A stretch of DNA of 64,000 nt from Lachnospiraceae bacterium 3-1 (GTDB lineage Bacteria; Bacillota; Clostridia; Lachnospirales; Lachnospiraceae): positions 33,526 through 97,525 of the forward strand of contig KE159573.1 of the NCBI GenBank assembly GCA_000403255.2, written 5' to 3'. Numbering within the stretch: position 1 is the stretch's first letter; every line of letters begins with the position of its first letter. A program made the translations under genes and the position numbers. This document shows positions 35,506-55,123 of the stretch, one piece after another. Below the pieces are notes generated by a model. The model had not been told where the DNA came from, did no database searches, and saw nothing but the letters and a program-made list of their open reading frames with translations.

Positions 35506-35568
35506 GCTATATCACCACCCTTCCAGCTTTAATGCTTAAATTTATACTTCTTATTATAACAAGAAGGA

Positions 35569-35754
35569 GCTGTCGCACTAACATAAATTACAATATATAA
35601 ATTTGTTCAAAAGGTTTACATTGCAAAGCAATGCAAACAAAATGCACAAAAAATATCTCGGGAAGCTAGCTTCCCGAGATATTTTTTGTGCATTCTGTCT
35701 TTGCCGCATAAGCGGCAAGACCTTTTGAACAAGTAACTATATTAGTGCGACAGC
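35569..35754. repeat. Nested palindromic element, copy 1 (three stem-loops inside two outer stems)
   Basis: Outer stem: 35569-35581 with 35742-35754, 13 bp perfect. Inner closing stem: 35603-35615 with 35720-35732, 13 bp perfect (core CAAAAGGT). Inside are hairpin 1 (CATTGC-AAA-GCAATG, 35619-35633), a perfect 52-base palindrome centred on GCTAGC (35642-35693), and hairpin 3 (TTGCCGC-ATAA-GCGGCAA, 35701-35718). The three hairpins and the closing stem would form a four-way junction. No ORF is inside. The same architecture with different stem sequences occurs at 54910-55107. Being symmetric, it does not reveal its coding strand, if any. Confidence 0.85.
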
Positions 35755-35766
35755 CCCATAAAAAAA

Positions 35767-35799
35767 CAGCTTTGTATAAAACCCTTCCATACAAAGCTG
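35767..35799 (-). terminator. Intrinsic terminator of the uxu operon
   Basis: CAGCTTTGTAT and ATACAAAGCTG form an 11-bp perfect stem, followed on the minus strand by seven T residues. It sits 22 bp behind the SDR stop codon. Confidence 0.88.
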
Positions 35800-35821
35800 C
35801 TTTCACCTATCAAATTATTGG

Positions 35822-54059: not shown

Positions 54060-54809
54060 TTACCACTCCTTACGCTCTACTCCATAAGCCGCCTCCAGTT
54101 CTTTTACCTTCGCATCATAAGCTTTCTGCTGCTGGCCCTGGATTAACTGTTGATGGATCTGCGCCTGCACCTGTTCAAAGGAACGTGTAGCCCCTTCCTT
54201 CTTATCTTCCACTAAGATCAAGTGGAATCCAAACTGGGTCTTTACTGGACCGATTACCTTGCCAATTTCCCCGTCAAAAGCTGCTTTTTCAAATTCCGGC
54301 ACCATTTGACCCCTGGTAAAATAGCCCAAATCTCCGCCTCTTTCCTTGGAAGGACAGGTAGAATATTTCCCGGCTGCTTCTGCAAAGCTAAGCCCCTGCT
54401 CTACTTCCTCTGCGATCTGTGTTGCCAATTCCTCTGTTTCCACCAGAATATGCTTTGCACTCACCTGAGCTTTCTCTGCAAACTTCTCCTGATTTTCCTC
54501 ATAAAATTGTCTTTCTGCTTCTTCAGTTATCTTGATTCCTTCCACTACGCTGGTGGCCGCCATGTGACTTGCCAGCTCTACTTTCACCTTCTCCACCATC
54601 TCTTTATATTCCTGAGATTTGGTAATCCCCTCTTCCACTGCCATCTTGTAAAACAAATGAAAGGCAATGAGCTGATCTAACACCTGCTGCTTTGCCCCAG
54701 GGCTTGACATATAAATCTGCTGTTCTGGCGGATAATTGCTAATTAATTGATTCAATTCCTGCTCCGTAATCTCGTGTCCTGCTGCTACTGCCAAAATTTT
54801 TTCACTCAT
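54060..54809 (-). CDS. Parvulin-type peptidylprolyl isomerase, cytoplasmic
   Basis: 249 aa. The N-terminal helical chaperone-like part (SurA/PrsA N-like, about 10-110) is followed by a rotamase domain: VSAKHILVETEE, FAEAAGKYSTCPSKERGGDLGYFTRGQMVPEFEKAAF and QFGFHLILVEDK. No signal peptide or lipobox is present, unlike PrsA, so it should work in the cytoplasm, perhaps as a folding helper. Clear ribosome binding site is less obvious (GGAAGCC about 20 bases upstream). Forms a small unit with the AI-2E-type gene. Confidence 0.88.
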   Translation of the reverse strand: MSEKILAVAAGHEITEQELNQLISNYPPEQQIYMSSPGAKQQVLDQLIAFHLFYKMAVEEGITKSQEYKEMVEKVKVELASHMAATSVVEGIKITEEAERQFYEENQEKFAEKAQVSAKHILVETEELATQIAEEVEQGLSFAEAAGKYSTCPSKERGGDLGYFTRGQMVPEFEKAAFDGEIGKVIGPVKTQFGFHLILVEDKKEGATRSFEQVQAQIHQQLIQGQQQKAYDAKVKELEAAYGVERKEW

Positions 54810-54909
54810 GTCCTCTGCGCCTATCGGCTTCCTTTCTATATAATTTCATACTGCTTGATTGTTTTCTGATATTCTACCATAAAGTAACTTTCTCGTAAAG
54901 GCATACACA

Positions 54910-55107
54910 TTTTGAGTTTCCCCATTTTACAATTCATAGTACCAAAAGGTTTCCATCACGAAGTGATGGAAACACTTTGCACAGAAAAGCACTCTGGAAA
55001 GCTAGCTTTTCAGAGTGCTTTTTGTGCAAGATGTCTATGCTGCCAAAGGCAGCAAGACCTTTTGGTTCTATAATATCGGCTATTATAAAAAATGGGGAAA
55101 CTCAAAA
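54910..55107. repeat. Nested palindromic element, copy 2
   Basis: Outer stem: 54910-54928 with 55089-55107, 19 bp perfect. Inner closing stem ACCAAAAGGT (54941-54950) with ACCTTTTGGT (55057-55066). Inside: hairpin 1 (TTCCATCAC-GAA-GTGATGGAA, 54951-54971), a central long hairpin 54979-55027 around GCTAGC, and hairpin 3 (TGCTGCC-AAA-GGCAGCA, 55038-55054). Order, loop sizes and the bases AAAGGTTT, GCACA, AAGCTAGCTT, TGTGC, GATGTCT/CTGTCT and GCAAGACC are shared with 35569-35754, while most paired stem bases differ but still pair. It fills most of the 314-bp gap 54810-55123; nothing else is seen there. Confidence 0.85.
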
Positions 55108-55123
55108 TACACATCAGCCCCAT

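Follow-up and report, generated by a model that had tools for sequence, protein, structure and literature searches.

The window, that is the whole stretch of 64,000 nucleotides which was analysed, holds two nested palindromic loci, one type A element and one type B element, the parts of which are collected in Table 1. Both had been described in the original prediction as built on one layout, and this layout is real: the sequences and the minimum-energy folds of both loci display an outer stem, a closing stem and three hairpins. Compared with 200 shuffles, the stability of the fold reaches z = -16.2 at the type A locus and z = -14.3 at the type B locus. The scan of the window with R2, a covariance model of the core (see below), returned two strong matches, each on both strands, plus two matches at chance level. 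At gathering thresholds Rfam gave no match in the window, and neither a tRNA nor a tmRNA was found there. The predicted promoter of the PPIC-type gene lies 11 bp from the end of the type B element. Directly adjoining the type A element, a further inverted repeat of 15 bp (35763-35803) is terminator-like for the minus-strand dehydrogenase gene.

Table 1. Parts of the two elements and the neighboring promoter, in positions of the window.
Feature	Position	Strand	Basis
Type A element, 192 bp, putatively non-autonomous, IS1182-type ends	35566..35757		terminal repeat matches, copies, partner IS
Type A left terminal inverted repeat GGAGCTGTCGCACTAA	35566..35581	+	1 mismatch to GGGGCTGTCGCACTAA
Type A right terminal inverted repeat	35742..35757	-	exact match
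Type A four-way core: closing stem CAAAAGGT/ACCTTTTG and three hairpins	35608..35727		R2, 133.6 bits
Type A core hairpin 1	35616..35636		sequence and fold
Type A core hairpin 2, apex GGGAAGCTAGCTTCCC at 35660-35675	35643..35692		inverted-repeat listing and fold
Type A core hairpin 3, TTGCCGC/GCGGCAA	35701..35718		sequence and fold
Type B element, 196 bp, putatively non-autonomous, ends of an IS4-like IS	54911..55106		terminal repeat matches, partner IS
Type B left terminal inverted repeat	54911..54928	+	exact match
Type B right terminal inverted repeat	55089..55106	-	exact match
Type B target-site duplication, left copy ATACACAT	54903..54910	+	flank comparison
Type B target-site duplication, right copy ATACACAT	55107..55114	+	flank comparison
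Type B four-way core, common to type A	54943..55064		R2, 131.7 bits
Type B core hairpin 1 (slot taken by type A in nested copies of other genomes)	54951..54971		sequence and fold
Type B core hairpin 2, apex centred on GCTAGC	54977..55029		sequence and fold
Type B core hairpin 3, TGCTGCC/GGCAGCA	55038..55054		sequence and fold
Predicted promoter TTTACG-17-TAGAAT of the PPIC-type gene 54060-54809	54871..54899	-	by eye

The genome to which the window belongs (5.08 Mb, 27 contigs) contains 14 copies with a complete core, seven of type A and seven of type B, plus partial or shorter ones. The ends of type A, like those of the first locus, are GGGGCTGTCGCACTAA, while those of type B, like those of the second, are TTTGAGTTTCCCCATTTT. 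Because these are two different terminal inverted repeats, the outer stems of the two loci are unrelated: they had been taken for diverged versions of each other, and are instead the terminal repeats of two IS families. Both kinds of ends are also found, by eye, on shorter relatives with no core or with one hairpin, and the existence of such forms means that movement does not require the core.

It had also been proposed that related genomes should be searched for further copies and that the changes in their stems should pair. Both were found: the changes pair, and model R1 matches 17 of 116 related genomes, namely 17 of the 29 in the genus of the window and 0 of the 87 outside it (at most 30 matches were scored per genome and both strands were counted; copy numbers per genome are not exact). 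A pattern scan of genome contigs yielded 95 stretches, nearly all titled Lachnospiraceae and 3 from unrelated phyla; several bear names of MGBC, a mouse-gut catalogue. The wider model R2 matches 13 of 299 genomes of the family at E <= 0.001: two in the own genus, two strongly in further genera (G128 and G311) and nine weakly. Among the four weakly matching genomes which were inspected, G359 has the layout and the other three have no clear one. The core is thus also found with ends other than these two and in further genera of the Lachnospiraceae; the plasmids and viral contigs searched gave no core match. In a roe-deer Lachnospiraceae metagenome-assembled genome (L158, JAFUTQ010000018.1), three cores with other outer stems lie within 8 kb. 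Cores with further outer stems are also seen in other genera (L371-L376, L378-L381, L384-L386), and some of the G311 copies have, by eye, apparent duplications of 7-8 bp.

Of the 120 loci L095-L214, 100 entered the comparison of flanks, ends and cores. One strand was kept per place, and places already present under another locus identifier, one partial match and one exact duplicate were removed; the resulting set has 114 elements, of which 14 belong to the own genome. At the loci from L095 onwards, 6 of 113 type B ends and 1 of 53 type A ends have neither a partner end nor a core. At 192 and 196 bp neither type has room for a transposase gene; both come in many dispersed copies and have terminal inverted repeats in common with a complete IS, as is the case of MITEs. 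These sequence comparisons give good support to the view that the two loci are small mobile elements, putatively non-autonomous, of one genus of the Lachnospiraceae.

Of the 56 elements with both B ends, 43 are flanked at these ends by a direct repeat 6 bp long or longer; the mean repeat is 7.0 bp long, against 0.90 bp when flanks are shuffled between elements, and 8 of the 56 copies have no detectable flanking repeat. The copy in the window has ATACACAT on both sides. Empty sites were searched with the joined flanks of type B copies, one copy of the repeat being removed. As read from the alignment table, 14 of 20 such queries align through the junction in a relative with a length difference of at most 3 bp; for the window's own type B site, the relatives searched gave no empty-site ortholog. 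At one of the 14 sites (L172) the flanks match several places per genome, and this copy perhaps sits in another repeat.

A pair of -35/-10-like boxes starts 10-13 bp from the B end in 41 of 112 flanks, where shuffling gives 7.2 on average and 14 at most in 300 shuffles; such a pair is present on at least one side of 38 of the 56 elements. Such -35-like boxes are found outside the element on both sides, 10 on the right and 19 on the left. Taken together, these positions show an insertion of type B about 11 bp upstream of predicted promoter -35 boxes.

A complete IS of 1423 bp (L432, in genome G028) has perfect type B ends, with 18 of 18 letters shared at both ends, and is flanked by direct repeats of 10 bp. 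It encodes a protein of 428 amino acids with a DDE_Tnp_1 domain (Pfam, 34.5 bits, over the cut-off of 23). This protein scores below every curated IS4 cut-off, the best being NF033591 with 56.4 bits against 152, and we call the putative transposase IS4-like only. No core match was found in G028. Before considering this IS as the partner, one may think of the Mutator-type elements TnGBS, ISLre2 and ISKra4, for which the cited account gives duplications of 8-9 bp and insertion just upstream of sigma-A promoters (PMC3942029). Type B is similar in both respects, but its distance to the promoter is about 11 bp as compared to the 13-17 bp given there (PMC3942029), its ends are without the terminal C and the IS with B ends encodes an IS4-like DDE_Tnp_1 protein. 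A Mutator/TnGBS partner was set aside because an IS4-like IS with perfect B ends was found. In a PF06782 search of the own genome no control matched, and an open reading frame beside L090, considered as a possible IS, has no Pfam match.

The behaviour of type A is of another kind. No direct repeat of 4 bp or longer flanks any of the 29 type A elements. Nor are these associated with promoters: a -35/-10-like pair at the given distance occurs in 3 of 58 flanks, against 3.2 expected by shuffling. We searched the joined flanks of 14 non-nested type A sites against the 29 genomes of the genus. At all 7 informative sites, a relative has a different hairpin; the other 7 sites, the window's included, have no informative ortholog. 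At three sites the replacement is exact on both sides, the hairpins of the relatives being GCGGCTCCCAgaaTGGGAGCCG, CGGCAGATGAtaacacTCATCTGCCG and CCCAGgGCATATGTATGCgCTGGG at the junction. At four further sites the hairpin is present in the relative, the replacement not being exact on both sides because one flank has diverged. Three of these four have clear hairpins, some of them resembling terminators, with T-runs, in several relatives; at the L137 site the hairpin is AT-rich and weak, and 5 of 200 shuffles reach it. Over the sites, the stems measure 9-17 bp and are reached by 0-5 of 200 shuffles, the segments having been chosen by eye and the shuffles preserving base composition alone. Two more relatives at the L016 site (L255, L263), in which the right flank is poorly aligned, have no hairpin. 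In the left flank of the L186 site, a stretch at query positions 545-630 recurs at many places in several genomes of the genus and is probably another dispersed repeat; in the left flank of the L205 site, a GC-rich palindromic stretch (query 36-93) recurs in several of these genomes.

A general turnover of hairpins would be a trivial cause of this result. We aligned two genomes, G027 and G004, over 309,820 columns including gaps (264,862 bases in long matches), and found 73 divergent patches. By script, 2 of them exchange a hairpin for a hairpin, both being type A; 5 oppose a hairpin to nothing, 4 a hairpin to unlike sequence, and 62 are without hairpins. One of the hairpin-versus-unlike patches is by eye a third exchange, by an element with GGGGCTGTTGCA ends. 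Since the exchanges are either type A or GGGGCTGTTGCA-ended, in this pair exchange goes with such ends, and general turnover was rejected. Near position 212959 of contig C1 of G027 (L311), a core-less element with ends GGGGCTGTTGCAAAAT stands where G004 has another hairpin; it is perhaps another hairpin-replacing type.

Complete elements of 1.9 kb of the IS1182 family, with GGGGCTGTCGC ends, are present in two members of the genus, G024 and G003. The type A end shares 16 of 16 letters with one end of the G024 element and 14 of 16 with its other end, the counts that hold for the ISs at L394 and L408. The partner transposase belongs to the IS1182 family (NF033551, 311.7 bits for a cut-off of 270). 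The ends of these complete elements can themselves pair as hairpins, and such self-pairing ends are a likely source of the short forms. The relatives in which the complete partner ISs of both types were found (G003, G024, G028) hold few core copies or none. In the own genome, no complete partner IS was seen among the matches to type A and type B ends and the 3 of 8 IS1182 matches which were inspected.

The cited accounts of IS1272, a member of the IS1182 family, describe a transposition which replaces inverted repeats, with ends of about 16 bp and no duplication (PMC5678879, PMC4923244). Type A resembles IS1272 and TnSha1, as these accounts present them, by terminal repeats of about 16 bp, by the lack of a target duplication and by target hairpins, often terminators, that are replaced by the element (PMC5678879, PMC4923244). 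Compared with what is described there, type A differs in being gene-less, in its length of 192 bp, in its three-hairpin core and in its occurrence in Lachnospiraceae, and the ends of its partner IS are GGGGCTGTCGCACTAA and GGGGCTGTCGCTTTAA.

Type A also takes the place of hairpin 1 within type B, as seen in nested copies with the arrangement CCAAAAG[A]ACTTTGCAC (L149 and L179 among others). In L194 type A is nested at the apex of hairpin 2 of type B, and in L178 the hairpin-1 slot of type B is filled by an A-like hairpin. Among 85 elements with two ends of one kind, 54 are B/B, 29 are A/A and 2 have a B carrier with an A core. In these last two (L184 and L156) one A end is gone, at the CAAAAGG or CCTTTTG stem, and the other is kept. 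A third copy, L206, has A-like surroundings in which only the left end is recognised, and its core is nearer to B (85%) than to A (74%). These three recombinant copies support a core changing carriers, and the comparison suggests that cores may pass from one carrier to the other.

We consider it very probable that two DDE transposases would move non-autonomous elements carrying one shared structured core. For type A, an IS1182-family transposase would recognise the 16-bp ends, and the element would replace an existing target hairpin without duplication, as the copies, the orthologous sites and the partner IS indicate for a transposition which we infer. For type B, an IS4-like transposase, proposed from the identical ends, would recognise the 18-bp ends and would produce duplications of about 8 bp at sites that precede -35 boxes by about 11 bp, as judged from the copies and the empty sites. 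The exchange of cores would begin with a type A element landing in a type B hairpin; a deletion at the repeated CAAAAGG/CCTTTTG closing stem would then leave a carrier with the core of the other. We infer the order of these steps from three copies. The core itself would most likely act as DNA, either bringing the two ends together or offering its conserved hairpin-2 apex to a protein.

Three options had been offered in the original prediction, and among them the transposable element is borne out by the copies, the terminal repeats, the duplications of type B, the hairpin replacement of type A and the complete ISs. The option of a nucleoid or replication site, for which selection would act at given positions of the chromosome, has fared badly. 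The elements are indeed palindromes at the DNA level and are present in many copies, but insertion marks account for their positions and relatives have clean empty sites, so that we regard such a site as extremely improbable.

The question of what the core does is of another order. We aligned 22 diverse cores (5 modules being dropped before representatives were chosen), and this alignment is the basis of R2. Over 47 pairs, 92.2% of the alignment cells are standard pairs, against 79.6% after shuffling and 41-51% with slid partners; changes on both sides occur at 34 of the 47 pairs, against 18.7 in shuffles which ignore relatedness. Compensatory change had been claimed from the two loci of the window. 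The changes do pair, but the stronger covariation is seen only with more distant copies: over the 14 copies of the own genome, 8 pairs have changed on both sides, of which 6 reflect a single A-versus-B split and 2 are confined to one copy. Nor does the contrast drawn with a recent copy hold entirely, as some B copies of the own genome are 99% identical to that of the window. In G311 and G359 the four-part layout is kept with largely unrelated letters. Alignment A5 (20 sequences) has 8 invariant columns, every one of them within the apex of hairpin 2.

An RNA working from a fixed strand should tolerate G-U more than A-C. At the paired positions of 98 cores (6 modules dropped) we counted 99 G-U and 103 A-C, and in the 22 diverse cores (A4) 35 G-U and 26 A-C. 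The control, 14 tRNA acceptor stems, gave 9 G-U and 0 A-C; it is small and leans towards G-U, since tRNAs with fewer than 5 acceptor pairs were dropped and G-U was counted as a pair. As G-U is about as frequent as A-C, the counts lend no support to the structured RNA that had been envisaged, and an RNA acting from a fixed strand appears unlikely. At a permissive threshold, Rfam searches of 10 and of 5 loci gave only sub-threshold matches at the core; mir-559 (37.2 bits against 95) and His_leader (33.2 against 49) were dismissed as lying below their gathering scores. The statement that the layout belongs to no named family holds in so far as the core gives no Rfam match above a gathering score, but the carriers are tied to IS families.

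Equal counts are compatible with a structured RNA or mRNA-end element which works from either strand, since palindromes fold from both. A role of this kind has been hypothesised for REP repeats in the cited account (PMC3733652). The great stability of the folds and the terminator-like hairpins of the relatives at several type A sites would fit it, while the absence of a G-U excess, when set against the 9:0 of the small tRNA control, the lack of an Rfam match above gathering score and the -35-like boxes beyond either end of type B all speak against it; we consider it unlikely. The equal counts would suit as well a core without function, a passenger that would owe its pairing to recent copying and to hairpin-templated correction when the DNA is replicated. 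Core-less forms exist, collapsed hairpins occur, and the copies of the own genome are similar within each family, all of which this account would explain. It does not by itself predict a four-part layout maintained with largely unrelated letters in other genera, nor the gathering of all invariant columns in one apex, and we find it possible but rather doubtful. Most likely, as we see it, the core acts as DNA, in the form of a cruciform or a single-strand hairpin, and we hold this less firmly than the mobility of the elements. One could go further and see in the core a selfish DNA module, a hyper-parasite of transposons which would swap carriers through the replacement of hairpins together with recombination at its CAAAAGG closing stem, and whose invariant hairpin-2 apex would be recognised by a protein. 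This proposal is tentative and we would not bet on it; if it were true, the layout would have persisted while nearly all of its letters changed from one Lachnospiraceae genus to another.

Bacterial MITEs such as ERIC, BOX, RUP and bcr1 are short, intergenic, palindromic, structured and dispersed, with terminal repeats. Both elements match them in all these respects, and differ in that one core is here mounted on carriers with unrelated ends and different insertion modes, with recombinant intermediates. MITEs, hairpin replacement by IS1182 elements and insertion close to promoters are known parts; their combination with a traded core was not found in the open-access literature searched, nor was an earlier description of a core traded between carriers, which does not prove that none exists. 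The type A sites bring sequence evidence for hairpin-swapping transposition, terminator-like hairpins included, beyond the published staphylococcal case. With carriers of unrelated ends trading one core, it becomes testable whether a DNA shape can be a transmissible and selected part of mini-transposons. A word of caution also follows for other repeats: covariation among their copies need not imply an RNA.

Finally we must mention the Clostridiales-1 RNA (RF01699), the Rfam consensus of which, as given in the cited source, consists like our core of a closing stem and three hairpins (PMC2864571). The copies of the window are not among the RF01699 matches and the conserved internal sequence differs; the core copy at L379 overlaps only a sub-threshold Clostridiales-1 match (29.6 bits for a gathering score of 48). 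The identity of the core with this RNA was rejected on account of that sub-threshold overlap and of the differing internal sequence. About 50 bp from the L379 core copy lies a Clostridiales-1 RNA (L379:475-635, minus strand, RF01699, 69 bits), one hairpin apex of which is by eye similar to that of the core (ACAAGCGAGCTTGT).
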